From Ecytonucleospora hepatopenaei (taxonomy: Eukaryota; Microsporidia; Enterocytozoonidae): a stretch of DNA of 64,000 nt. The first letter of the stretch is position 1, and every line of letters starts with the position of its first letter. The notes beneath the pieces were generated by a model. That model had not been told where the DNA came from and did not search any database. It was given only the letters and a program-made list of their open reading frames with translations. Position numbers and translations under genes: made by a program. Location of the stretch: the NCBI GenBank assembly GCA_026692725.1, contig JAPMUG010000007.1, forward strand, positions 110,191-174,190, in the 5' to 3' direction. Shown here in pieces: positions 5,088 to 64,000 of this stretch.

Positions 5088-5544
5088 TTGATTTATAAAA
5101 TAAGTTATTTATATATTTATTTTATGTTATAATCTATTTATATTTATATTATAATCTATTTATATTGTATTATAATCTATTTATATATTTATATAATCAA
5201 TAAAGGGTTAAAATATACTAAAAATATTTATAAAATCAAAACATAAAAAATTGATTAAAAATATTTCCTACTATAAATAACATTTATAAAATTTAAACGG
5301 ATTAAAAAAATACTTACAACATTAATAATTAATAATTAAAATATCTTATAAATATATTCCTTATCAAATAATAAAATCATAATAAAATTATACCCCTAAT
5401 AAAAAAGTAAAAGAAATAATTTATAATAAAAAATAAAAAGTAAAAGAAATAATTTATAATATAATATAATATAATTTAATACAATATAAATATAAATTTA
5501 ATACAATATAGTTATAAATTTAATTTAATACTTTATATTTTATT
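5088..5544. repeat. divergent promoter region with direct repeats
   Basis: 457 bp between the divergent ABCG and BRF1 genes. A perfect 26-bp direct repeat, AAAAAGTAAAAG followed by AAATAATTTATAAT, occurs at 5402-5427 and 5435-5460 (33-bp period). Closer to ABCG, TTATAATCTATTTATA-type units repeat about three times between 5128 and 5190. CCC-containing sites occur near 5391 (TATACCCCTAAT) and, on the minus strand, near 5205. These could be regulatory or simple slippage products. Confidence 0.55.
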
Positions 5545-7041
5545 ATGTCTAAAGTATGTATAAATTGTAATTCTAATGAACTTACCACTGATACTTCTAG
5601 AGGTATAATATGCTGTGAAGAGTGTGGTATGATACAAGAAGAGAATCTAATTGTTAACACCATACAGTTTGAGTCAACCAACAACAAAAGCACAATGCAT
5701 GGGAAAGTGGTGAATGTGGAAAACAAAAATGTAGGCACCCAATACGTGGACAGCTGCTACTACATCAAAAACACAATAAAAAACATCACCATTAAGCTGT
5801 CACTAACTAACACCCATGCAGACATAGCATTCAGGTGGTACAAGCTGTGTCTGGCCAATAACCTGACCAAGGGCAAAAGCATACTCCATACCCTATCAGC
5901 ATGCATATACATAGCATGTCGTCAAACCAACTCCCCCCACCTGCTAATAGACTTTTCCAATGTGTTACAAATAGACATGTATCAGATAGGCAAGATATAT
6001 TTGAGGATAAGAAATACATTTAAGATAGAGAATCAGGTGGAAGATACATATTTATTATATTTACATAGATTTGTAGATCAATTAAAATTTAATACTAATA
6101 CCAATAATAGTTTAAATAATAATATATTAAATAACAATATATTAAATAACAATAATTTAAATAATAACAATATATTAAATAATAATAACAATATATTAAA
6201 TAATAATAAGTGTACACCTAAAGATGTTATTTTACTCAGCACTAGAATATTAAATAGAATGAAAAAAGATTGGATCATAGAGGGAAGAAAGCCTAACAAT
6301 GCGTGTGGTGCTGCCATACTCCTGGCATCAAGGATACTTGGTGATCCAAGGGAAGTACATGAGGTGGCAAGGGTGGTCCATGCAGCACCAGCCACGCTCA
6401 CCAAGAGACTAAAAGAGTTTGCAAGTACACAAACAGCCAAAATGGATATAAATGAGTTTAATACAGAGTGGTTAGATGAGGAAGCAGCACCACCAGTATT
6501 AAGACAGTTTAAAACAATAAGAAGTAATAATAATAATATAAAAGATAATAATAATATTTTATATTCTAATAATATAAAAGAAAACAATATTAAAGATATA
6601 GAGAATAACACTAATTTATATAATACTAATACTAATAATACTAATAATACTAAAGATATTTTTATTAATGAATTAAATAATACATTAAATAATAAAAATA
6701 TAATAAATAATGATAATAATAAAAATATAATAAATAATGATAATATAATAAATAATAACATTTTAGATGGTGATAATGACAGTTCTTTTATTAATGACAT
6801 GATTTTACCCAGTGATGAAGTTGCCACTAAAACTGCCATATGGGAAGAAATGTATGGCACATATGTGAAGGAAGCAGAAAACAAGAGAAAGAGCAAGGCA
6901 TCCACTGCAACAGGAGTGACCAGAAAAAAGACAAAAAAGAAGCATAACTTTGCTACGGTGGAAGAGGCATACAAGTCATTAGATAAAAAAGTATCAAGTA
7001 AGTTAAATTATACAGCATTATCAGGGTTATTTCAGAAATAA
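5545..7041 (+). CDS. BRF1: TFIIIB subunit BRF1 (TFIIB-related factor)
   Basis: RNA polymerase III initiation factor. The N-terminal zinc ribbon has CINC (residues 5-8) and CEEC (24-27). The first cyclin repeat contains FRWYKLCLANNLTKG and HLLIDFS, both much closer to BRF1 than to TFIIB. The second contains MKKDWIIEGRKPNNACGAAILLA. Near the C-terminus AIWEEMYGTYVKEAE and KVSSKLNYTALSGLF fit BRF1 conserved regions that contact TBP and Bdp1. Two Asn-rich inserts interrupt the protein: about 175-222 between the cyclin repeats and about 328-410 after them. At 498 aa it is shorter than yeast Brf1 (596 aa). The start is the first ATG, only a few bases before the conserved ribbon. Confidence 0.92.
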   Translation: MSKVCINCNSNELTTDTSRGIICCEECGMIQEENLIVNTIQFESTNNKSTMHGKVVNVENKNVGTQYVDSCYYIKNTIKNITIKLSLTNTHADIAFRWYKLCLANNLTKGKSILHTLSACIYIACRQTNSPHLLIDFSNVLQIDMYQIGKIYLRIRNTFKIENQVEDTYLLYLHRFVDQLKFNTNTNNSLNNNILNNNILNNNNLNNNNILNNNNNILNNNKCTPKDVILLSTRILNRMKKDWIIEGRKPNNACGAAILLASRILGDPREVHEVARVVHAAPATLTKRLKEFASTQTAKMDINEFNTEWLDEEAAPPVLRQFKTIRSNNNNIKDNNNILYSNNIKENNIKDIENNTNLYNTNTNNTNNTKDIFINELNNTLNNKNIINNDNNKNIINNDNIINNNILDGDNDSSFINDMILPSDEVATKTAIWEEMYGTYVKEAENKRKSKASTATGVTRKKTKKKHNFATVEEAYKSLDKKVSSKLNYTALSGLFQK

Positions 7042-7411
7042 CATTTAATAAATATAAAATAAAATATATTATAAATAAATAAAATATAATTAATAAATTA
7101 TTATATTTTTACTAATTAACCAATAATATTTATTTATATATTTATTTATTTATATTTTTTTTACTAATTAAATTAACAAATAAAAATACATTTACTATAA
7201 AATAGACTATTACTAACTATTATATAATATAAATTAAATATATCACTATATAAACATATAATATAACATAATATTTATAAATAATATACTACAAACAATA
7301 AAATATAAATATAATATACTACAAATAATAAAATATATTAATATACTTCAAACAATAAAATAATACTATACTACAAATAATATTATTATACTACAAATAA
7401 TAAAATATATT
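7042..7411. repeat. AT-rich intergenic region with TACTACAAA repeats
   Basis: 370 bp. Between about 7281 and 7410 the motif ATACTACAAAYAATAAAATAT (sometimes shortened, once ATACTTCAAA) recurs about five times, spaced 20-35 bp, and ends 10 bp before the SNARE start codon. No gene is visible. Confidence 0.6.
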
Positions 7412-7831
7412 ATGACTGATAAAATAGATGAAGTTGATCAACAAGTTAATTTGCTACAAAACAAATTAAAAGATAGACTCAAACAAACACAAGATTTATC
7501 TGACCTGAACAATGATGTGTTTAAGTCAACCATGAAAATAGAAAAGTCAACAGCAAGACTAAAAGAAACAGCAGTAAAGACCAAGTGGTACTGGTTCTGG
7601 GAGTGGTTTAAGTGGGCATGCATAGCATTTGCAATAGCAACAGTAATAATATTGATATTACTAAATAAGATGGGATTTATAGGAAAAGGAAGTACAACAA
7701 CAATAAATGAAAATAATACAGAAAACAATAATACTGAAAATAATAATACAGATAATACTGAAAATACAGAAAATACAGAAAATAACAATAATACAGAAAA
7801 CAATACTGATAACAATAATGATAATGGATAA
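7412..7831 (+). CDS. R-SNARE (synaptobrevin/VAMP-like) with a polar C-terminal tail
   Basis: Vesicle-fusion SNARE. Residues 5-60 align without gaps to the VAMP SNARE motif: IDEV, then 13 residues, then the zero-layer arginine R22, heptad hydrophobics, and an aromatic juxtamembrane WYWFWEWFKW before one membrane helix (about 70-90). The residue spacing from IDEV to the arginine is the same as in VAMP2 from VDEV to its arginine. Unusually, the helix is followed by about 45 residues of Asn/Thr/Glu repeats (NNTENNNTEN type), which would face the lumen or exterior. R-SNAREs normally stop within a few residues of the membrane. The protein probably acts in secretion; the exact compartment cannot be told. 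Confidence 0.8.
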   Translation: MTDKIDEVDQQVNLLQNKLKDRLKQTQDLSDLNNDVFKSTMKIEKSTARLKETAVKTKWYWFWEWFKWACIAFAIATVIILILLNKMGFIGKGSTTTINENNTENNNTENNNTDNTENTENTENNNNTENNTDNNNDNG

Positions 7832-7984
7832 AATATAATTATAAATAAATTATGTATATATAATATATAATATATTTATATATAAACTATGTATATATAA
7901 TATATTTAAATATAAACTATGTATATATAATATATTTATAAATAAACTATATATAAACTATGTATATAACATGTTATATTATTG
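7832..7984. repeat. imperfect tandem repeat, ATAAACTATGTATATATAATAT units
   Basis: From about 7845 to 7978 the motif AACTATGTATATATAATATA recurs about four times in 27-36-bp units with small length changes. It fills the gap between the SNARE gene and the next small frame. Confidence 0.7.
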
Positions 7985-8227
7985 TTATATATATTTAGTA
8001 GTTATTCTCTTTTCTAATATTTTCTTATATATTTCTTTTTTGTCTCTTATGCTTATATCCACATAAAATATTCTCTTATATATTTTACATTTATTACATA
8101 TACAATCTATATGTCTATATAGAAACATAATAGTAGGTCTACATATAATATCATATTGATTATACTTATTATGTATATTATGTCTATTATTAAGTAATAT
8201 ATTATAAATATAATAATTAGTATACAT
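7985..8227 (-). CDS. doubtful small Cys-containing protein
   Basis: An 80-aa ATG-started frame. The middle reads CRPTIMFLYRHIDCICNKCKIYKRIFY, with four cysteines that might bind zinc (CICNKC), and the tail is basic. The composition (Tyr/Ile/Asn) is what random AT-rich DNA also yields, and it lies between two satellites. I do not recognise it. It is reported because the Cys/Arg-rich segment does not look like translation of a simple repeat. Confidence 0.25.
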   Translation of the reverse strand: MYTNYYIYNILLNNRHNIHNKYNQYDIICRPTIMFLYRHIDCICNKCKIYKRIFYVDISIRDKKEIYKKILEKRITTKYI

Positions 8228-8568
8228 AATATAAATATATTATAAAATATAATATAATATAATATAATATAATATATATTATATTATATGTTTTATATTT
8301 AAATAAATTGTATCATATACTAATAAATAATTTGTTATAATATAAAATAATATAATATAATATTATATTTTATTATGTTACATTTTATAATATAATGTTT
8401 TTATTTATAATATTTTTATACCCTTATTATTTTTATATAAAATTTTACACATATATAAATACATAATATTATATATTATATATTAATTATATATTGTTAT
8501 ATTCTATTATATAAATACATAATATTATATAAATATTATTATATTAATTATATAAATATATTACTAAC
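8228..8568. other. AT-rich intergenic region, 341 bp
   Basis: Almost only A and T, with TATAA and ATATT runs near 8245-8280. A CCC site (ATACCCTTATT) lies near 8420, about 145 bp before the next start. No gene seen. Confidence 0.45.
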
Positions 8569-11500
8569 ATGCATATATTAACATTAATTAACAAAATACA
8601 TAAAGATACATTAGCAATAAAAGAAGTAGAAGAAGAAGTAAATAGAATAGCAAATGGAGATATAAGTGAGATATATACATTAATAAAGATAATAATAGAT
8701 AGCAGTAATACTAACACTAATATTAATATATGTAATAATACTAATATAAACAGTAATACTAATATATCTAATAATAATATTTCTACTGTTATATTTTATT
8801 TATTTAAAATAATTGAAATTAAAATAAGAAATATAAAGAATACTAATATATGTAATGATACTAATAATACTAATACTAATGTATATACTAACAATAACAA
8901 TGTATATACTGATATAATATCATTAGTAGAATCATATATATCACATGGTATGACTAATGACATTAGTATAATAAAGCCATGTGTATTAGATACATATGTG
9001 TTATTAGCATTATATTGTTGGCCAACATATATGCCTAATTTTATATCATATATAAATAATACTAATAATACAATATATAATGATAATACTAATACTAATA
9101 ATAGTTTATATAATGATACAGTATATAATGATACTAATAATACAGTATATAATGATAACAATAGTTTATATAATAATATTTTAATCAAATATGATCTATT
9201 ATATTTATTCCTAACTGAAACCAACTATAATATGGAAATAGATAATAAAAGAAGAGGTGAAATCAAGAAGTGCATCAACACCATATTATCAGATATCAAC
9301 AATAACAGTAACATATTAAATAATAGTTTTATACACAATATATTGAATAATATAAATAATGATAATATCAAATATAGTGTAATTGACATACTTATCAAAA
9401 TATATAAAGAACTATTGAAAATAAACCATACACTCATTGATTATGATGTGGTATATGGTGCAGCACCCACCCACCCACACAGAGTAGCAGAGTTCTATAC
9501 AGAGTGTGACATAGCATACATGGATATGGATAAGTTTTATAAGTCACTGGATGGGTTATATCCAGATATAGGGATAATAGAAGAATATATATTAAATACT
9601 AATACTACTAAAACAGTATGTAATAATACTACTAAAACTAATAATACTGATAATATATGTAATACTACTAATACTACTACTAATAAAGTTATATTAACTA
9701 ATAATCATATACTTAATTATATGTATAAATCTATTAGTGATAGTGATACATATAATAGCAGTATAATATATTTTACAAGGATATATAGTAAAGTATATGA
9801 TAGTAATAATACTAATACATGTAATATTAGTAATTATATAGAAATGATATTAAAAGAAATATTTAATAATACAGTATATAATGATACATATAATACTGTT
9901 TTATATAATAATACTAATATATTATATAATAATACTATTAATATATATAATGATAGTGATTCATTATTATTTAACCTTATTATCACACTTAGTAAAACAT
10001 ATCCTACTCAACTATTTATGTATTATATCAATAATGAGAATATAACAGATAGTAGGTATATTACTACATCAATAAGTAAGTATAATACATATATAAATAG
10101 TAATATAAATAATACTAATATATTATATAATATATCATTTAGTAATATATATAATGATACATATAGAATGTATATAATAAATGATAATGAATGTATACAT
10201 AGAATAAATAATATGTTAGACAGTATAATAAATACATATAATAACACTAACAATATAAATAACAATAATATAAATAACAGTAACAATATAAGTAACAATA
10301 CTAATACATACAATAAGAATGTATGTAAATTAATTATATATATCATATCTAAATATAAACATAATATTGATAGTAATATATTACATAATGTATATAATAA
10401 GTTATATATATTACATACTAATATACTTAATAATACATATACTAATATAATACATATATATAGTATATTAGTATATGGATATGAAATATTATCAATGATA
10501 GATAATATATTAGATAGATATATAGATTTTACTAATATATTAAATAATACTAATAATAATACTAATATATCAAATAATAGTAATACAAATACTAATATAT
10601 CAAATAATACAAATATTACTGATATTGATTATATGTCTAATCTATATTCTATTATGTATTATTATTATATTAAGTCTAATTATGCTTATTATAGTAAATA
10701 TGCTAATATATATTTAGAGTATTATATAAATTATAAGTCATATAGGCCATTAGATAGGTGTTATACAATTATATATAAGATATATAGTAATATAAGTAAT
10801 ACTAATATAAGTAATACTAATAATATAAACAGTAATATCAAATATTCTTTTAATGATATACTTAAATATATATATGATAATATACATACATATGATATCA
10901 ATACTATATTATATATTAACAATGATATATTATATAAGCTAATAAGTGATAATACATATGATAACATAATACTACTATATATTGATAAAGAATATAAAAT
11001 ACTATTAGACATATATGATAATATTAGTGATTATAAAATATATTATACATGTATAAATAATATATTACAATTAATAGAGAATATATTACGTAATATTATA
11101 ACAGATAATACTAATAATACATTATATAATAATACTACTAATACTAATATATTATATAATAATACAAATAATACAAATAATACATTATATAATAATACTA
11201 CTAATACATTATATAATAAGTTAATATGGGATTATATTAATATATTGATTAATTTATTATATATTGATTATAGTAATATTACTAATAAGATATTACATAT
11301 ATTTATTAATACTATTAAACATATAAGTAATACTGATATATCTGATAATATACATAATACTATACGTACTACCATATATAATCTATTAATGTGTTATAAT
11401 ATGCCACACCTAATGGTAGCACAGTCTAATATAATATATAGTATAACATTACTAATAATAAAATATACATATGCATGTGATATATTAAATGAAATATTAT

Positions 11501-11784
11501 ATGGTAATACTAATATAAGTAACAGTAATATAAGTAATACTAACACTAATATAAGTAATAATATAAGTAATGTTGCTAATCATATTAGAAATATGGATAA
11601 AAAGAGTGCATGTAATGTTATTAAGAATGTATTAAAAGATTATAAAGGTAAGTCAATTAATAGAATGTATGAAGGTAATAAAGTAAAAGAATATAAAGTA
11701 TTTGATAGTAATATAAATAGTAATATAAATAATAGTAATACTAACATATATAGTAGTAAAGATTTTAAAGATACATTAGGATAA
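8569..11784 (+). CDS. large Asn/Thr/Ile-rich helical protein, possibly a karyopherin (exportin-like)
   Basis: A single uninterrupted 1071-aa frame, by far the longest in the window. Most of it is helical-looking segments (Ile, Leu, Tyr, Lys) separated by AAT/ACT-encoded TNNTN tracts. A few blocks look genuinely constrained: LDTYVLLALYCWPTYMPNFI near 140-160, which recalls the WP..WP.FI segment near the N-terminus of exportins; AAPTHPHRVAEFYTECDIAYM; and the end KKSACNVIKNVLKDYKGKS, reminiscent of exportin-5/Msn5 C-termini. Size and alpha-solenoid look fit a nuclear transport receptor, but this is inference. What is certain is that such a long stop-free frame in DNA this AT-rich must be under selection. 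Confidence 0.7.
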   Translation: MHILTLINKIHKDTLAIKEVEEEVNRIANGDISEIYTLIKIIIDSSNTNTNINICNNTNINSNTNISNNNISTVIFYLFKIIEIKIRNIKNTNICNDTNNTNTNVYTNNNNVYTDIISLVESYISHGMTNDISIIKPCVLDTYVLLALYCWPTYMPNFISYINNTNNTIYNDNTNTNNSLYNDTVYNDTNNTVYNDNNSLYNNILIKYDLLYLFLTETNYNMEIDNKRRGEIKKCINTILSDINNNSNILNNSFIHNILNNINNDNIKYSVIDILIKIYKELLKINHTLIDYDVVYGAAPTHPHRVAEFYTECDIAYMDMDKFYKSLDGLYPDIGIIEEYILNTNTTKTVCNNTTKTNNTDNICNTTNTTTNKVILTNNHILNYMYKSISDSDTYNSSIIYFTRIYSKVYDSNNTNTCNISNYIEMILKEIFNNTVYNDTYNTVLYNNTNILYNNTINIYNDSDSLLFNLIITLSKTYPTQLFMYYINNENITDSRYITTSISKYNTYINSNINNTNILYNISFSNIYNDTYRMYIINDNECIHRINNMLDSIINTYNNTNNINNNNINNSNNISNNTNTYNKNVCKLIIYIISKYKHNIDSNILHNVYNKLYILHTNILNNTYTNIIHIYSILVYGYEILSMIDNILDRYIDFTNILNNTNNNTNISNNSNTNTNISNNTNITDIDYMSNLYSIMYYYYIKSNYAYYSKYANIYLEYYINYKSYRPLDRCYTIIYKIYSNISNTNISNTNNINSNIKYSFNDILKYIYDNIHTYDINTILYINNDILYKLISDNTYDNIILLYIDKEYKILLDIYDNISDYKIYYTCINNILQLIENILRNIITDNTNNTLYNNTTNTNILYNNTNNTNNTLYNNTTNTLYNKLIWDYINILINLLYIDYSNITNKILHIFINTIKHISNTDISDNIHNTIRTTIYNLLMCYNMPHLMVAQSNIIYSITLLIIKYTYACDILNEILYGNTNISNSNISNTNTNISNNISNVANHIRNMDKKSACNVIKNVLKDYKGKSINRMYEGNKVKEYKVFDSNINSNINNSNTNIYSSKDFKDTLG

Positions 11785-12074
11785 TATAATAGTATAATAT
11801 AATAGTATAATATTACTAATAATATAATAGTATAATAGTATATTTTATATAATAATATATTTTATATAATAGTATAATATTACTAATAAATATTTTTAAA
11901 TAAATTTTTATTATACCCTTTATAACATAACATAACAGATTTATTTAACTATATTATATATATAATACATATAATAATATAAACTATAACAATACATATA
12001 ATAATATAATAATATAATATAACAATACATATAATAATATAAACTATTTTTAATATATAATAATATATTTTAAT

Positions 12075-12734
12075 ATGAGCACTAATAAACCTATTAAAAA
12101 ACATAAATCTAATATTATTAAATCTATTGATAAGTTTGATAGTTACTTACATAAGTATAAATATATGTTACTTATTGATAAACATAATATTAGTACACCT
12201 ACTATACAGCATATTAGAGATACATATAAAGATAGTATGGTATTGATATCAATAAAAGGAAGTATATTAAGAAAGTTATATGATATAAATACTAATAATA
12301 ATATATGTAACAATACTGATATAAATATATGTAATAATACTAATATTAAACATAATTTTATTATATGTCTTACTAATGATATTGATATTATTAAATCATA
12401 TACATATTATGATTATTTATTAGAAGGTGAAAAGAATGAAAAAGAATTATATATAAATATGTTAGAATGTAAGAATAGGAAAGTATTAGAATATATCAAT
12501 ATTACTACTAATAGTATAAATGATAATAGTATAAATGATATTATATGTAATAATACTAATATATGTAATAATACTAATATATGTAATAATGATAATGTTA
12601 TTAAGTTATTTTCTATTGGTCAAATAGTTAATAAAAAAGATATTGAAATTATGAAAATATTACAGTTTAAAGGTATATTACGTAAGTTACATATTATAGG
12701 AGAATATAATACTGATAATATACATAAGAAATAA
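12075..12734 (+). CDS. MRT4: uL10-family protein, Mrt4-like (60S assembly)
   Basis: Predicted ribosome assembly factor that occupies the P0/uL10 site on pre-60S particles in the nucleolus. Residues 15-70 carry the N-terminal uL10 pattern: a basic start, LHKYKYMLLIDKHNI, then TPTIQHIRDTYKDSMVLISIKGSILRKLY, the counterpart of the P0 NV.S..LQ.IR....A..L.GKNT.MRRAL helix and strand. A later segment, VNKKDIEIMKILQFKGILRKL, resembles the Mrt4 LT.EQA..LK.FG..MAEFKV block, and there is no acidic P-protein tail. These favour Mrt4 over P0. Asn/Thr tracts (about 75-95 and 150-175) interrupt it. Upstream, 290 bp are AATAGTATAAT-type AT repeats with one TACCCTTTAT at 11914. Confidence 0.62.
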   Translation: MSTNKPIKKHKSNIIKSIDKFDSYLHKYKYMLLIDKHNISTPTIQHIRDTYKDSMVLISIKGSILRKLYDINTNNNICNNTDINICNNTNIKHNFIICLTNDIDIIKSYTYYDYLLEGEKNEKELYINMLECKNRKVLEYINITTNSINDNSINDIICNNTNICNNTNICNNDNVIKLFSIGQIVNKKDIEIMKILQFKGILRKLHIIGEYNTDNIHKK

Positions 12735-12896
12735 TAAAATATTATACTAATATACTATATATTAATAAAGTATTATACTATTATACTAATATATTATTGT
12801 TTATTTATATGTTTTATATGTTTTATATTTTATTATAAATAAATAATATATATTTATATATTAATTTATTATATATTAATTTATTATATTATATTT

Positions 12897-13751
12897 ATGT
12901 ATACTATTGATGATTATACTAAATACTATTTAAATATTAAAACATCTTATAATAATTTTATATCATTACATAATCATATATTTATTAATCATAAGAAATA
13001 TAATATTACATATAATAATATAATAGTACATAAATATATATTAAATAATAATATAAATAGTAATAGTAATAGTAATATAAATAGTAATAATAATATAAAT
13101 AGTAATATTCATTTATATAATGATATAATTGTATATAATAATTATATTGCTCTATTTAACCACAATCAATTTAATTATATACACATATATACCATTACCA
13201 ATAGTGTTATTAAGCTATATAAGTCTATAGATGTGTCATGTATGTTTTACCACTGCTATGCTAATAAGAAAGTACGAAGGACATGCATACGAATATACAT
13301 GAGTATAATGCATATGCATAGGAGTGACTGTTATATGGAGGGAATACTATCATATATAAATATAGAGGATATAAAGAATATAAAGGAATATAAGGAAGGG
13401 ATGGTAGTAGAATATAACAGTAATATAAACAATATAAATAGTAATAATATAAACAATATAAATAGTAATATAAACAGTTATACTATTATATATGATAAAT
13501 ATTTAAATATAATAAATACATCTAATACAACTGTCAATGATAATAGTAGTGATATTAAGTTAAATAGTATTCCTAATAACTTAATACAGGATACTTTTAT
13601 GATTAAAATATATAAAGATAATATATCTATTATTAAGGATGATAGTACATATATAAATAAAAAGAAAATAAAGATAAGAAAGTATGAAGTATATGAAAAT
13701 AAAATATATAATTTATATAAGGATACATTACAAATAATAGAGATAATATAA
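12897..13751 (+). CDS. hypothetical Asn/Ile/Tyr-rich protein
   Basis: A 284-aa frame from the first ATG. Residues 1-60 and 85-190 look constrained (for example [21 protein letters not shown] and [21 protein letters not shown], with several Cys and His), while NINSNNN tracts at about 50-85 and 170-200 are microsatellite-like. There is no signal peptide or membrane segment. I do not recognise a family. Its 3' end runs directly into the 8-bp satellite at 13750. Confidence 0.6.
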
Positions 13752-13997
13752 ATATATAAATATATAAATATATAAATATATAAATATATAAATATATAAA
13801 TATATAAATATATAAATATATAAATATATAAATATATAAATATATAAATATATAAATATATAAATATATAAATATATAAATATATAAATATATAAATATA
13901 TAAATATATAAATATATAAATATATAAATATATAAATATATAAATATATAAATATATAAATATATAAATATATAAATATATAAATATATAAATATAT
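13750..13997. repeat. 8-bp satellite (AATATATA)n
   Basis: About 31 essentially perfect copies of AATATATA fill the space between two convergent genes. It begins inside the stop codon of the upstream gene and ends just before the stop codon of Mtq2. Confidence 0.95.
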
Positions 13998-14004
13998 TTT
14001 AAGC

Positions 14005-14703
14005 TTATAATTTTATTTTATAAATTTCTATTGTTTCTCCTAATATCTTTTTTGTTTTTACTAATGATATATTTATATTATTTATATTATGTATATTATG
14101 TATATTATGTATATTATGTATATTATTTATATTATTAGCTTTAATTACTAATAAATATACTATAAGATTATTATTTATTATATTATTTTCATTAGTAATG
14201 TTTATTTTATTATAATATTCTACTATATTATTCATAAACTTATTTATTACTTCACTTCCTTCTTTCCCTCCTTCTAATATTGTCCCTCCCATATTTGTGT
14301 CTTTATATTCTTCTATTTCTTCACTTGGTACATATGGTGCATTAAATAATATAATATCAAAATATGATAGATTAATATAATCAAACATATTGGTTAATAT
14401 TAAATTATAATCAGTATTGGTATTATCGGTATTATTATTGGTATTATTGGTATTATTAGTGCTATTGCTTACTGCTTCTAATGCTTTTATATTTATATCT
14501 GTACTTATCACTATATTGTTCTTTTTTACCTGGTTAGTTAGTATACATGTTGAACAACCTAAATCTAATATTACTTTGTTAGTTAGTGACAATTCATTTA
14601 GTAGATCTACAAATAGATAGCTATCTTCTTGAGGTTCATAATAATCAAAGTTATATCCATATTTATTAATATAAGAAGAATTAAATATATTGTTGTTATT
14701 CAT
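14005..14703 (-). CDS. MTQ2: eRF1 glutamine methyltransferase catalytic subunit (Mtq2/HemK2-like)
   Basis: Class I SAM-dependent methyltransferase; the eukaryotic family methylates the GGQ glutamine of release factor eRF1, working with Trm112 in the cytoplasm. Seen: [14 protein letters not shown] (residues 20-33), motif [13 protein letters not shown], the acidic end of strand 2 [12 protein letters not shown], and the catalytic loop [10 protein letters not shown]. The usual NPPY is NAPY here; the catalytic Asn is kept. [11 protein letters not shown] and NIHNIHNIH tracts are inserted. At 232 aa it is close to the family length. The start ATG immediately precedes five Asn codons. Confidence 0.85.
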
Positions 14704-55446: not shown

Positions 55447-57836
55447 TTAATGTAAAGTATAAAAAGTATAGACTAATGTTTAATTAGAAAATCAATATAT
55501 ATTTATTAATACAATTAATGTGTACAAAAGACATAGTAAAGATGTGTATATATTTATAACAATTTATTCATTAGATTATTTAACCTTAAAAGTTTAAAAA
55601 AATATAAATATTTATATTTTTACATACATATAAAATAATAGCAATATTTAGTAAACTTTTAAACATATTTTATTATATAGCAATTTAATAGTAATAGAAA
55701 ACAATAGAAGAAAATGTTTATAAAAATATTAATCATAAAACTGAACAATAAAAACTTATTTGGTTATTCATAAAAATAAAAAACAATAGATAAAAAAGTA
55801 AGTTTATTTAATAACATAGGAAAAGGATAAGGTTAATATAAAAAGTAAAAATAATCATAAAATAACAAATACAAGCAAATATGTAAAAAATTATTTTTAT
55901 AACTATATGGTTAAGAAACAAAGATATAAATAAAAAATACGTTTTACTTACTAATACACAAGATACTGTTAATATTTTGAATCATTATAAAATGAACCAT
56001 ATAACTTAATGTATAGTAAAATAGTATCATTTAAATCAATATTATGTAATACACAAAGTAATAGTCATATTAAAACAATTAAACAATAACTATACTTAAT
56101 ATGTTTAATAAACATAATACAATAACTAAAAAAAAACTAAAAGATATTATTTAAATATGTTACTAATTAAAAAATTATAAAAACTAAAACATTAGAGATA
56201 ATATCAGGTAAAAAATATTATAGCATTATAAAAATATAAACTAATAAATATAGAAGTAATAATAAAGTAAAAAAAGATTAAGAAAATACATTAGAAACAA
56301 TTATATTATATTATATTATAATATATTATATAATATTATTTGAATATAATAAATATCATATAAAACATCATTATATATTATAACATTATTATAATAATAT
56401 ATAAAGGTGTATTAGTAAAATTAAAAGAATATAGTTAGAAATGATATTTAAAATAAAATAAACTTAACTTCAATAACACATAATACAATATAAAAGTGTT
56501 CATATAAAATTTAGTAGTTTAATGTATAATTATTATATAGGTATTGTTGTATATTGATGAAATATTAGATATAAAAGAAATACTAACATAAACAGTAATA
56601 ATAGTAATAATACTTAACAATATAGAATATAATATTAAAAACATTAAAAATAAAATATAAGGTAAAATGCATTAAACTAACAATATAAAGAAATGTTAAT
56701 GTTGGAAACTAATTTATCTGTCATAACAATTTATTAAAGTAAAAACAATATGGGTAAATTTTTATAAAAAATATATATTAGATATTAAACACACTTCAAA
56801 CATATCCATAATCCCAACAGTTAATAAAAAATAGAAAATATTTAAAAGCATATGTAATATAGTAAGAAAATAATAAATATAAAAAATATAAAGAAATATT
56901 AGCATGTAATAATAAATGACAATAATAATAACAAGTATTTGTGTTTTATATAATAAATATAAATGATACTACTAGTAATTTATTAAAGATAGAAATATAT
57001 TAATTATACTCATGTTTTAGTATTTTATTACTTAATTGTTTTATTATTTTATTATTTTATTAATTGTTCATTTTAGAAGTTTTAAACATACTAATAAATG
57101 ATTCAAATTTTACATATAAGATAAATATTTATTAAAAACAATATATGTAAGGTTATAAATAAATCTTGTGCTATACCTTATAAAAATATTTTATTAGTAA
57201 AATTATAAACATAATAAATAGTAGTAAAATTATAAGTATATTTAATAGTATAGGTAAAATTTCAAGGGCAAAAAGTAATGTAAACTTTTTAAAAGTCAAA
57301 TTTTATAAGTAAAAAGTTACAAAAATAATTTCAACTTTTTAGGCAAAAATATTTTATAAAGCACAATTAAAACAAGAAAAAGGTAAAAAACTAACTTAAA
57401 CATAATTTTATCAAATTATTTAACACCTCTTTTATTAGATAACATGTTTTTTAAATAAAATTGTTTTTTTATTGTTGTATGCCACATCCTGACAAAATTT
57501 ACAAATAATAGGTTTTTAAAATAAACTTGTGTATTTCTAAGTTTTAGCATTTTTATGTAAGTACAAGCATTATAGCATTCTTTTACATTTAATTAGTTTG
57601 AAAAGTTTATTTAAACTTTACAGCTTAAAAAACAAGTATTAGATAAAGTCATCCGTAGTTATTTATTCAGTGATAAGTTTTTAATCAAAATAGAGTTTAT
57701 TAATAAGTAGTGTTAAAAAAATAAGAACCATAATTTTGATAGGTTAAAAAATGTTATTTAGTAAATAAAAAAGGTTTAATAAATAAATCTCTAATTTTCA
57801 AACTAATATTTATTTTGTCTCCTTTAACATGAAAGT
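55439..57836. other. gene-poor subtelomeric region, 2.4 kb
   Basis: Very AT-rich with stops in every frame, poly-A and AATATTA runs, and no convincing protein fragment, RNA or mobile element. It marks the transition from genes to subtelomeric repeats. Confidence 0.6.
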
Positions 57837-57837
57837 C

Positions 57838-58155
57838 AATAATGTAATAATGTAATAATGTAATAATGTAATAATGTAATAATGTAATAATGTAATAATG
57901 TAATAATGTAATAATGTAATAATGTAATAATGTAATAATGTAATAATGTAATAATGTAATAATGTAATAATGTAATAATGTAATAATGTAATAATGTAAT
58001 AATGTAATAATGTAATAATGTAATAATGTAATAATGTAATAATGTAATAATGTAATAATGTAATAATGTAATAATGTAATAATGTAATAATGTAATAATG
58101 TAATAATGTAATAATGTAATAATGTAATAATGTAATAATGTAATAATGTAATAAT
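57838..58155. repeat. 8-bp satellite (AATGTAAT)n
   Basis: About 39-40 tandem copies of AATGTAAT without visible variants. It would be read on the minus strand as an open repeat frame, but this is an accident of the unit (no stop in that phase). Confidence 0.95.
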
Positions 58156-58289
58156 TTCTGCGTTGGAAAATCCAACAAATTTTTAATTATCATTAAATAT
58201 ATTTTTAAGTTATCATTGATTATTTATGGAAGGAAAATCTTTTGTTTGTTTTTAAATGTGGTTTTTTGTACTCTAAATTTTATTTTTAA

Positions 58290-59390: not shown

Positions 59391-60165
59391 AGTTTTAGGT
59401 AGATGTATTTTTCAATTTTTTGTATTTGTGAGTATACCCTTTAGTAAAAAATATGGTTAATAAAATTAGTACTAGTAAATATTTTTTAACCCTAATAGTA
59501 AAATAGAATAAAAAAGAATATAAAAGAATAATAGTAGAAATATAATTTAAATGTATTAATATAAGTGTAAAACATAATATAAATGATAGTAAATAAATTA
59601 TAAGTATATAAAATGCATTAGTTTAGTATATATTACTAAATAAATTATTATTTTAAGAAATTTAAAAAAAAATAGAAGAAATATTCTAATAAAATATATA
59701 AGTAAAGGTATAAATGATAAGGTATATGTGTATTTAAATAGTATTAATAATTATAAAAAGATACTTTATTAACTATTTACATGTTTTTAATAAATAAATT
59801 ATATAAATATATACATTTATTAGAAAATATTATAATATTTGTAAAAAAATAGGAATATTTTAAAAGATAATAAAAATAAGAGAAAACAATGAGTGTATTA
59901 AATAAAAAAAATATAAAGTAAAAAAAATAAAAAAACTAAAATAAATACTTAAGTATATTTACATATAAAAAATATAAAACTATTAACAAGTTTATAAACC
60001 TAATAATAAAATAAAAATAACAATAAAAAATCAAAAGAAATAAATACAAAAAGTTTAATTTAATTTATTAGTACTTAAAAAACATTATAATACTATTTTA
60101 TGAATAGTAAAAGTAAAAACAAAGAAAAGAAAATACGTGAAAACAAAAATTAGATTATGATTAGT
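59391..60165. other. AT-rich subtelomeric spacer
   Basis: Dense in A/T runs, no coding fragments noticed. Confidence 0.5.
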
Positions 60166-60215
60166 AGCGCGAGAAAACTTGACGGAGTGTAACGAAGTTA
60201 AAGTTTTGGAGCGCT
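60166..60215. other. GC-richer hairpin at the entry of the 30-bp satellite
   Basis: AGCGC (60166-60170) pairs with GCGCT (60211-60215) and AAAACTT (60174-60180) with AAGTTTT (60201-60207), leaving a 20-base loop GACGGAGTGTAACGAAGTTA. This 50-bp block is far more GC-rich than anything within several kb and abuts the first satellite unit. It might be a small structured RNA, a replication element or a junction from recombination. Confidence 0.6.
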
Positions 60216-61701
60216 ATTGACTAGATATCTTACCTACGGTAAGCTATTGACTAGATATCTTACCTACGGTAAGCTATTGACTAGATATCTTACCTACGGT
60301 AAGCTATTGACTAGATATCTTACCTACGGTAAGCTATTGACTAGATATCTTACCTACGGTAAGCTATTGACTAGATATCTTACCTACGGTAAGCTATTGA
60401 CTAGATATCTTACCTACGGTAAGCTATTGACTAGATATCTTACCTACGGTAAGCTATTGACTAGATATCTTACCTACGGTAAGCTATTGACTAGATATCT
60501 TACCTACGGTAAGCTATTGACTAGATATCTTACCTACGGTAAGCTATTGACTAGATATCTTACCTACGGTAAGCTATTGACTAGATATCTTACCTACGGT
60601 AAGCTATTGACTAGATATCTTACCTACGGTAAGCTATTGACTAGATATCTTACCTACGGTAAGCTATTGACTAGATATCTTACCTACGGTAAGCTATTGA
60701 CTAGATATCTTACCTACGGTAAGCTATTGACTAGATATCTTACCTACGGTAAGCTATTGACTAGATATCTTACCTACGGTAAGCTATTGACTAGATATCT
60801 TACCTACGGTAAGCTATTGACTAGATATCTTACCTACGGTAAGCTATTGACTAGATATCTTACCTACGGTAAGCTATTGACTAGATATCTTACCTACGGT
60901 AAGCTATTGACTAGATATCTTACCTACGGTAAGCTATTGACTAGATATCTTACCTACGGTAAGCTATTGACTAGATATCTTACCTACGGTAAGCTATTGA
61001 CTAGATATCTTACCTACGGTAAGCTATTGACTAGATATCTTACCTACGGTAAGCTATTGACTAGATATCTTACCTACGGTAAGCTATTGACTAGATATCT
61101 TACCTACGGTAAGCTATTGACTAGATATCTTACCTACGGTAAGCTATTGACTAGATATCTTACCTACGGTAAGCTATTGACTAGATATCTTACCTACGGT
61201 AAGCTATTGACTAGATATCTTACCTACGGTAAGCTATTGACTAGATATCTTACCTACGGTAAGCTATTGACTAGATATCTTACCTACGGTAAGCTATTGA
61301 CTAGATATCTTACCTACGGTAAGCTATTGACTAGATATCTTACCTACGGTAAGCTATTGACTAGATATCTTACCTACGGTAAGCTATTGACTAGATATCT
61401 TACCTACGGTAAGCTATTGACTAGATATCTTACCTACGGTAAGCTATTGACTAGATATCTTACCTACGGTAAGCTATTGACTAGATATCTTACCTACGGT
61501 AAGCTATTGACTAGATATCTTACCTACGGTAAGCTATTGACTAGATATCTTACCTACGGTAAGCTATTGACTAGATATCTTACCTACGGTAAGCTATTGA
61601 CTAGATATCTTACCTACGGTAAGCTATTGACTAGATATCTTACCTACGGTAAGCTATTGACTAGATATCTTACCTACGGTAAGCTATTGACTAGATATCT
61701 T
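60216..61701. repeat. subtelomeric 30-bp satellite, about 49.5 copies
   Basis: The unit is ATTGACTAGATATCTTACC followed by TACGGTAAGCT, repeated with no variant that I can see. Each unit contains the palindrome AGATATCT and the hairpin CTTACC-TAC-GGTAAG. The array starts at the hairpin and runs into the telomeric repeat. Because 30 is a multiple of three, one phase is open through the whole array (a ten-residue repeat of the TRYLTYGKLL type); a protein is unlikely. Confidence 0.97.
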
Positions 61702-61715
61702 AGTAGTTAGTTTAG

Positions 61716-61755
<40 letters not shown>

Positions 61756-61783
61756 AGTAGTTAGTAGTTAAGTAGTTAGTTAG

Positions 61784-61815
<32 letters not shown>

Positions 61816-61846
61816 AGTTAGTTAGTTAGTTAGTTTAGTTAGTTAG

Positions 61847-61886
<40 letters not shown>

Positions 61887-62038
61887 AGTTAGTTAGTTAG
61901 TTAGTAGTTTAGTTAGTTAGTTAGTTAGTTAGTTTAGTTAGTTAGTTAGTTTAGTTTAGTTTAGTTTAGTTTAGTTTAGTTTAGTTAGTTAGTTAGTTTA
62001 GTTAGTTAGTTAGTTAGTTTAGTTTAGTTAAGGTTAGT

Positions 62039-62069
<31 letters not shown>

Positions 62070-62080
62070 AGTTAGTTAGT

Positions 62081-62111
<31 letters not shown>

Positions 62112-62191
62112 AGTTAGTTAGTTTAGTTAGTTAGTTAGTTTAGTTTAGTTAGTTAGTTTAGTTAGTTAGTTAGTTAGTTAGTTTAGTTAGT

Positions 62192-62222
<31 letters not shown>

Positions 62223-62237
62223 AGTTAGTTAGTTAGT

Positions 62238-62305
<68 letters not shown>

Positions 62306-62335
62306 AGTTTAGTTAGTTAGTTTAGTTTAGTTAGT

Positions 62336-62378
<43 letters not shown>

Positions 62379-62525
62379 AGTTAGTTAGTTAGTTAGTTTA
62401 GGTTAGTTTAGTTTAGTTTAGTTAGTTTAGTTTAGTTAGTTAGTTTAGTTAGTTTAGTTAGTTAGTTTAGTTTAGTTTAGTTAGTTTAGTTAGTTTAGTT
62501 AGTTAGTTTAGTTAGTTTAGTTAGT

Positions 62526-62560
<35 letters not shown>

Positions 62561-62598
62561 AGTTAGTTAGTTTAGTTTAGTTAGTTTAGTTAGTTAGT

Positions 62599-62658
<60 letters not shown>

Positions 62659-62691
62659 AGTTAGTTAGTTTAGTTAGTTAGTTAGTTTAGT

Positions 62692-62730
<39 letters not shown>

Positions 62731-62937
62731 AGTTAGTTTAGTTAGTTAGTTAGTTTAGTTAGTTTAGTTAGTTTAGTTTAGTTAGTTTAGTTTAGGTTAG
62801 TTTAGTTAGTTTAGTTAGTTTAGTTAGTTAGTTTAGTTAGTTAGTTTAGTTTAGTTAGTTAGTTTAGTTAGTTTAGTTAGTTAGTTAGTTTAGTTAGTTA
62901 GTTTAGTTTAGTTAGTTTAGTTAGTTAGTTAGTTAGT

Positions 62938-62972
<35 letters not shown>

Positions 62973-63734
62973 AGTTAGTTTAGTTAGTTAGTTAGTTAGT
63001 TAGTTTAGTTTAGTTAGTTAGTTTAGTTAGTTAGTTTAGTTAGTTAGTTAGTTTAGTTAGTTAGTTAGTTAGTTTAGTTAGTTTAGTTAGTTTAGTTAGT
63101 TAGTTTAGTTTAGTTAGTTAGTTAGTTTAGTTAGTTAGTTAGTTAGTTTAGTTAGTTAGTTAGTTTAGTTAGTTAGTTTAGTTAGTTTAGTTAGTTAGTT
63201 AGTTAGTTTAGTTAGTTTAGTTAGTTTAGTTTAGTTAGTTTAGTTAGTTAGTTTAGTTAGTTAGTTAGTTTAGTTAGTTTAGTTAGTTAGTTTAGTTAGT
63301 TAGTTTAGTTAGTTAGTTAGTTTAGTTAGTTTAGTTAGTTAGTTTAGTTAGTAGTTAGTTAGTTAGTTAGTTTAGTTAGTTTAGTTAGTTTAGTTTAGTT
63401 TAGTTAGTTAGTTTAGTTAGTTAGTTAGTTAGTTTAGTTAGTTAGTTAGTTAGTTAGTTTAGTTAGTTAGTTAGTTTAGTTAGTTTAGTTAGTTAGTTAG
63501 TTAGTTTAGTTAGTTAGTTAGTTTAGTTAGTTAGTTAGTTTAGTTAGTTTAGTTTAGTTTAGTTAGTTAGTTAGTTAGTTAGTTTAGTTAGTTTAGTTAG
63601 TTAGTTAGTTAGTTTAGTTAGTTAGTTAGGTTAGTTAGTTTAGTGTTAGTTGTTAGTTTAGGTTAGTTTAGTTAGTTAGTTTAGTAGTTTAGTTTAGTTA
63701 GTTTAGTTTAGTTAGTTTAGTTAGTTAGTTTAGT

Positions 63735-63781
<47 letters not shown>

Positions 63782-64000
63782 AGTTTAGTTAGTTAGTTTA
63801 GGTTTAGTTAGTTTAGTTAGTTAGTTAGTTTAGTTAGTTAGTTTAGTTAGTTTAGTTTAGTTTAGTTAGTTTAGTTTTAGTTTAGTTAGTTTAGTTAGTG
63901 TTAGTTTAGTTTAGTTAGTTAGGTTAGTTTAGGTTAGTTAGTTAGGTTAGTTAGTTAGTTAGTTTAGTTAGTTAGTTTAGTTTAGTTAGTTAGTTTAGTT
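61702..64000 (+). repeat. telomere-type array of mixed TTAG and TTTAG
   Basis: 2.3 kb of TTAG and TTTAG units in irregular order, with occasional TTAGG, TAGTAG and TTTTAG variants. The G-containing strand points toward the right end of the window, as expected at a right chromosome end. Variants are frequent near the junction (61702-62040) and again at 63620-63670 and 63880-63950. There is no non-repeat sequence after it. Confidence 0.93.

Follow-up and report, generated by a model that had tools for sequence, protein, structure and literature searches.

When a contig ends in a long run of short repeats of unequal length, it may be asked whether the run is a true chromosome end and, if so, what kind of activity has written it. 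Both questions are raised by the right end of the 174-kb contig C11 (174190 bases) of Ecytonucleospora hepatopenaei, a microsporidian of farmed shrimp which belongs to the Enterocytozoonida. The DNA analysed here, referred to as the window, is a stretch of 64,000 nucleotides corresponding to C11:110191-174190, and its last ~2.3 kb form a tandem array of TTAG and TTTAG units (Table 1) which is terminal in the contig, since the window end coincides with the end of C11. The MCM3 protein encoded in the window has Enterocytozoon bieneusi (57% identity, 96% covered) and Nucleospora cyclopteri (58% identity, 95% covered) as its highest-scoring named relatives, and is 65% identical to that of Enterospora canceri (69% covered). 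An initial annotation had started the array at 61702, which is correct to within 2 bases, and had called it a telomere. We estimate a chance of roughly three in four that the window array is a real chromosome end of E. hepatopenaei, maintained by telomerase in a loose register that gives units with either two or three T's (T2 and T3 hereafter).

Table 1. Features of the window at the right end of contig C11, in window coordinates
Feature	Position	Strand	Remarks
Gene run, proteins rich in Asn/Thr low-complexity stretches	5500-14700		among the lowest-GC parts of the window
Array of 8-bp unit ATATAAAT	13746-13997		perfect, 31.5 copies
Frame of tandem HYYIITLL repeats	57810-58193	-	
Short non-repetitive block at the subtelomere/satellite junction	60160-60213	+	delimited by eye; more G+C than the preceding AT-rich DNA
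Subtelomeric satellite, 30-bp unit CTATTGACTAGATATCTTACCTACGGTAAG	60214-61699	+	~49.5 copies; abuts the telomere; 49 of 49 complete copies identical
Terminal telomeric array, mixed TTAG/TTTAG	61700-64000	+	unbroken; G-strand 5'->3' toward the contig end; sequence read directly

The genome assembly examined comprises 3.09 Mb in 13 contigs (C followed by a number), from which both ends of every contig were taken (26 ends), and the units were counted in the assembled consensus sequence. TTAG/TTTAG arrays reach 19 of the 26 contig ends, which bears out the identification of the window array as a telomere. In 17 of these 19 ends the G-strand runs toward the end, as expected; the two exceptions, C2 left and C13 left, finish in a piece of opposite orientation, located past a tail-to-tail join. 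No array reaching the end was found at C1 left, C3 left and right, C4 left and right, C8 right, and C12 left (two of these were read in part), and at C4 right the contig stops within satellite. The left end of C3 terminates in a TATAT-type array, without a telomere.

The 30-bp satellite that precedes the window array is no more than 130 nt away from the proximal edge in 19 of the 29 arrays examined. Of 322 satellite copies at 14 ends, which coincide only in part with the 14 tested arrays described below, 321 are identical. Divergence of this satellite is near zero both within and between ends. The DNA adjoining the array at 433 kb in C5 is other than the 30-bp satellite. The short block between subtelomere and satellite has near-identical counterparts at C2 right and C13 left (the ends compared, by eye).

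Counting of the window array gave 533 units, i.e., 352 TTAG, 157 TTTAG and 24 others, 12 of the latter ending in GG (if counting starts one base later, TTAG falls from 352 to 351 and TAG rises from 7 to 8). Over all 29 arrays, internal and junction arrays included, which measure 0.36-2.7 kb as assembled, there are 10,208 units: TTAG 64.4%, TTTAG 27.7%, TAG 2.0%, TTAGG 1.4%, TTTAGG 1.1%, and TTAAG 1.0%. Most tests were carried out on a set of 14 end arrays with 6,169 units. Fifteen of the 29 arrays were left out of this set, 13 of them as internal or beside a join or block (one internal array in C1, four in C2, three in C4, three internal arrays in C5 and two at C13 left), together with C9 left and C10 left, in which 25-37% of the units are non-standard throughout, perhaps as a result of low coverage; the C5 right array was clipped at the edge of the fetched piece. 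In the 14 end arrays 6,146 of the 6,169 units have the form T-A-G, with a T-run of two in 69.4%, three in 28.5% and one in 1.9%, a single A in 99.0% and a single G in 97.5%; TTTAG makes up 27.4% of the units. The irregular number of T's, the predominance of one G per unit and the rarity of two-G units, all claimed earlier from the window alone, are thus borne out, and so is the expectation that hardly any standard G-quadruplex could form, as two-tetrad motifs (four GG with gaps of 1-7) number 0 in the window array and 2 in the 14 end arrays (26,537 nt). The other ends were also compared for a regular TTAGG array; none is present in the assembly, and three TTAGG in succession occur at only 4 places in the genome. 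Non-standard units were followed along the arrays of 15 ends, where they amount to 26% of the first 50 units, 12% of the next 50 and 2.6-5.1% of units 100-500, rising again to 12-18% past unit 500, where few arrays contribute. Renewal of the outer part would be expected to leave them densest at the proximal edge, as is observed.

Could the telomere be a regular TTAG (or TTAGG) array after all, with the T2/T3 mixture introduced as an artefact of sequencing or of the consensus? The question is pertinent as this assembly has telomeric artefacts elsewhere. Blocks consisting only of G and T (C and A on the other strand), about 0.6 kb or more as seen, are found at the right end of C2, at two places in C4, and in C5 at 430.8-431.8 kb and near 220.5-221.5 kb, and they grade into TTAG where both sides are readable. 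Beside two of these blocks in C4 there is an unusual stretch at least about 45 nt long, to which the PacBio hairpin adapter aligns with scores of 74 and 56 under the base map A->T, C->A, T->G, G->G. Of the 256 maps this one scores highest for each of the two C4 sequences (for the second, another map scores 54), and none of 60 shuffled adapters, under any map, exceeded 45 and 47, respectively. Under this map TTAG becomes GGTG, and the G/T blocks are therefore most simply explained as telomeric arrays read with shifted channels; they look like PacBio artefacts. Between T's the map predicts G-runs of 3 and 4, but runs of 2 are common as well (at C2 right there are 62 of length 2, 65 of length 3 and 23 of length 4), which speaks against this explanation unless bases were lost. 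Tail-to-tail joins (TTAG followed by CTAA) are found at C2 left, at C13 left and twice in C5 (near 219.7 kb and near 432.9 kb), and could be palindromes left by a missed adapter or misjoined chromosomes; in three of them (C2 left, C13 left and the one near 432.9 kb in C5) no adapter was seen, only degenerate AT-rich sequence. The 811-kb contig C5 may consist of three chromosomes falsely joined. The window array itself is free of G/T blocks; its TG and TTG units at 63644, 63650 and 63899 may be traces of the same artefact.

Consensus error is nevertheless an unlikely source of the mixture, because all complete copies of the adjacent satellite are identical and the variation is confined to the T-run, the A- and G-runs scarcely varying. 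The share of TTTAG among TTAG plus TTTAG is 24-39% in each of the 29 arrays, and random errors would be expected to leave the order of units independent, whereas TTTAG following TTTAG is deficient in 28 of 29 arrays. The identical unit order over the first 176 nt at C7 left, C9 left and C12 right also speaks for real variation, as supporting evidence only, since duplicated ends might have shared reads. Nanopore base-callers are described as able to alter unit length in telomere-like repeats (PMC9414165), but the remnants in this assembly point to PacBio. An artefact would also bring the species into line with its relatives, published with a plain 4-mer (PMC12449221, PMC13174016). Taking both sides together, we find it improbable that the mixture is an artefact. 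Its particular form, a TTAGG telomere with a lost G, was ruled out, as no TTAGG array exists and the G-runs hardly vary.

If the mixture is real, the order of its units becomes informative. The units had been said to alternate, which is too strong: TTAG is about twice as common as TTTAG and fixed alternation is absent. Unit type is negatively autocorrelated in segments of the 29 arrays at lag 1 (-0.20) and lag 2 (-0.035), and from lag 3 to lag 12 the coefficient differs from zero by no more than 0.04; a periodic higher-order unit was ruled out, as the autocorrelation shows no period. What is found instead is an avoidance of close repetition. The probability of TTTAG over the 29 arrays is 0.361 after TTAG and 0.181 after TTTAG, the difference having the same sign in every array except C9 left (17 cases). 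In the 14 end arrays the probability of TTTAG depends on how many TTAG have followed the previous TTTAG: for 0, 1, 2, 3 and 4 of them it is 0.174, 0.300, 0.368, 0.418 and 0.463 (n = 1461, 1207, 845, 534 and 311), and the rise is uneven thereafter, with 0.365 after five TTAG and about 0.48 after six to eight.

These figures bear on the simplest account of a mixed telomere, i.e., pure slippage on a two-A template, in which each unit gains a T independently and with fixed probability. Slippage of this kind would produce T2 and T3 from one template and fits the overall TTTAG share of the 14 arrays, but it predicts neither the halved probability after TTTAG nor the distribution of intervals between TTTAG units. 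For 1,461 such intervals the log-likelihood is -2934.8 for independent units, -2841.0 for a first-order model, -2821.8 for a negative binomial and -2820.3 for a recovery model (constant 2.0 units), the last with one parameter more than independence. We therefore give pure slippage little chance. Successive intervals are almost uncorrelated (0.036). A Markov chain of order 2 has the best BIC for the unit order, and the memory may exceed order 2, as the AIC over 29 arrays favours order 3. The choice between T2 and T3 thus remembers about two to three units, or 8-13 nt. Template-cycle models of 2 or 3 units, roughly optimised, gave no gain over the plain order-2 chain (BIC 6216.3 for the best of them, model 445, and 6204.0 for the chain).

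The initial annotation had offered recombination-based maintenance as an alternative to telomerase, by which, as in ALT, variant units would be copied and scrambled among ends. Exchange near the arrays does occur: some ends have their proximal edges in common and the homogeneous satellite adjoins 19 of 29 arrays, from which we conclude that the subtelomeres exchange. When all 29 arrays were compared with their proximal parts included, 4 of 406 pairs shared a unit order longer than 134 nt, the maximum of 1,186 simulated pairs, and in three of the four (234, 176 and 176 nt) the common stretch starts from the proximal edge in each array. C7 left, C9 left and C12 right are the arrays concerned, C9 left and C12 right agreeing over 234 nt. 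The fourth pair, C1 right and C12 right, has 136 nt in common away from the edge, slightly above the null maximum, and C6 left and C10 right have 133 nt in common at the proximal edge. The edge-anchored identity ends, however, within about 130-235 nt. Among the 91 pairs that the 14 arrays form, the longest order in common beyond the proximal 100 units is 19.03 units on average and reaches 31 at most, compared with 18.71+-0.37 in 25 simulations of the between-array null (maxima 24-36); the longest repeat of order within an array is 18.00 units (maximum 27), compared with 17.57+-0.48 in simulation (maxima 19-28). With outer sharing between and within ends not above the simulated level, and with a gene for telomerase reverse transcriptase (TERT) that includes an RNA-binding domain, maintenance by recombination is unsupported and very improbable.

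A search of the genome for TERT, as the initial annotation had suggested, found the gene at C12:72741-75293, encoding a protein of 850 amino acids. Pfam family PF12009 is the sole family above its cut-off in this protein (E 8.7e-9), which shows 100% identity across 850 residues with EHP00_886 of E. hepatopenaei, named telomerase reverse transcriptase in the database. When a large protein set was searched with it, only the E. hepatopenaei protein itself was returned (7,994 candidates scored), and the match of its reverse-transcriptase region to human TERT is weak (E 0.5), the best chain in that list being Prp8 (E 0.35). By eye, DLNSCFD, GILQGLSSS and YVDDF resemble reverse-transcriptase motifs, which we take to be A, B' and C, respectively. 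For the telomerase RNA, the patterns BCTAACTAAACTAA and BCTAAACTAACTAA (13-nt templates preceded by a non-A) have 31 and 59 matches in the genome, all of them in telomeric arrays; one pair of matches inside C5 seemed extra-telomeric and proved to lie in a telomere join, so that no telomerase RNA was found with these two patterns. An Rfam search of the window returned nothing at gathering score. Among capping proteins, the POT1 family PF02765 has no match in this genome, nor in any control genome. Encephalitozoon species are reported to have TERT, Stn1, Ten1, Pot1 and Tpz1 (PMC10158259), and Microsporidia sp. MB has been reported without CST and shelterin parts (PMC13174016).

The data are consistent with telomerase and a loose use of its template, as first surmised from the window. 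We propose that telomerase would maintain the ends, the outer unit order looking independent from end to end. Its RNA template would hold repeats of the CUAA and CUAAA type and would be about two to three units (9-13 nt) long, with an A-tract open to copying or re-pairing in either of two registers; one round of synthesis would then seldom yield two TTTAG in succession. The single G per unit would reflect the presence of one C in each template repeat, possibly a reduction common to other Enterocytozoonida, given TTAG in Glugoides and Microsporidia sp. MB. The usual template size of telomerases is about 8-13 nt. The memory of 8-13 nt in the unit order is close to this and may be read as the footprint of template-copying rounds. 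We would put even odds on a fuller proposal, in which telomerase writes its choices between T2 and T3 as a record that reaches back two to three units, the chromosome ends carry the template-cycle footprint of its RNA, and, with one G per unit and almost no G-quadruplex motif over kilobases, capping has to do without G-runs.

The one-G unit had been singled out as unusual; one G is confirmed here, but it is not unique, since two other members of the Enterocytozoonida have been described with TTAG telomeres. Glugoides intestinalis (PMC12449221) and, like it, Microsporidia sp. MB (PMC13174016) carry a four-base one-G unit at their chromosome ends. For both relatives a 4-mer is reported, and the word TTTAG is absent from the main text of either report (PMC12449221, PMC13174016), whereas the telomeres described here have about 27-28% TTTAG and no single 4-base unit, which makes them a variant rather than a plain member of the TTAG type. 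The arrays of Microsporidia sp. MB are given as 1.3-7.1 kb (PMC13174016), compared with 0.36-2.7 kb here as assembled. Interspersed 4- and 5-base units that differ by one T are described in Nosema muscidifuracis, with its composite TAGG/TTAGG telomere (PMC11592040); there one or two T's are combined with two G's, while here two or three T's are combined with one G. The TTAGG telomeres of Encephalitozoon, Ordospora colligata and Vairimorpha necatrix (PMC12449221, PMC10158259, PMC11592040) are related in sequence, but TTAGG accounts for only 1.2-1.4% of the units here and forms no array. Heterogeneous repeats are described for budding and fission yeast as well (PMC6410037); in budding yeast it is the number of G's that varies (G1-3T), whereas in E. 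hepatopenaei the variable run is that of T, and nearly all units have one G. No report on E. hepatopenaei telomeres was found among the papers listed in the literature searches, nor was the combination of TTAG with TTTAG or its order rule. One G per unit was thus already known from the Enterocytozoonida and a one-T wobble from another microsporidian; the TTAG/TTTAG mixture is new.

The analysis extends the one-G TTAG telomere to Ecytonucleospora, with a loose unit length. No microsporidian telomerase RNA was found among the papers listed in these searches, and the term "telomerase RNA" is absent from the main text of PMC10158259; the order statistics reported here provide a testable prediction for the template of such an RNA. 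A G-strand almost without adjacent G's also raises the question of how the chromosome ends are capped.
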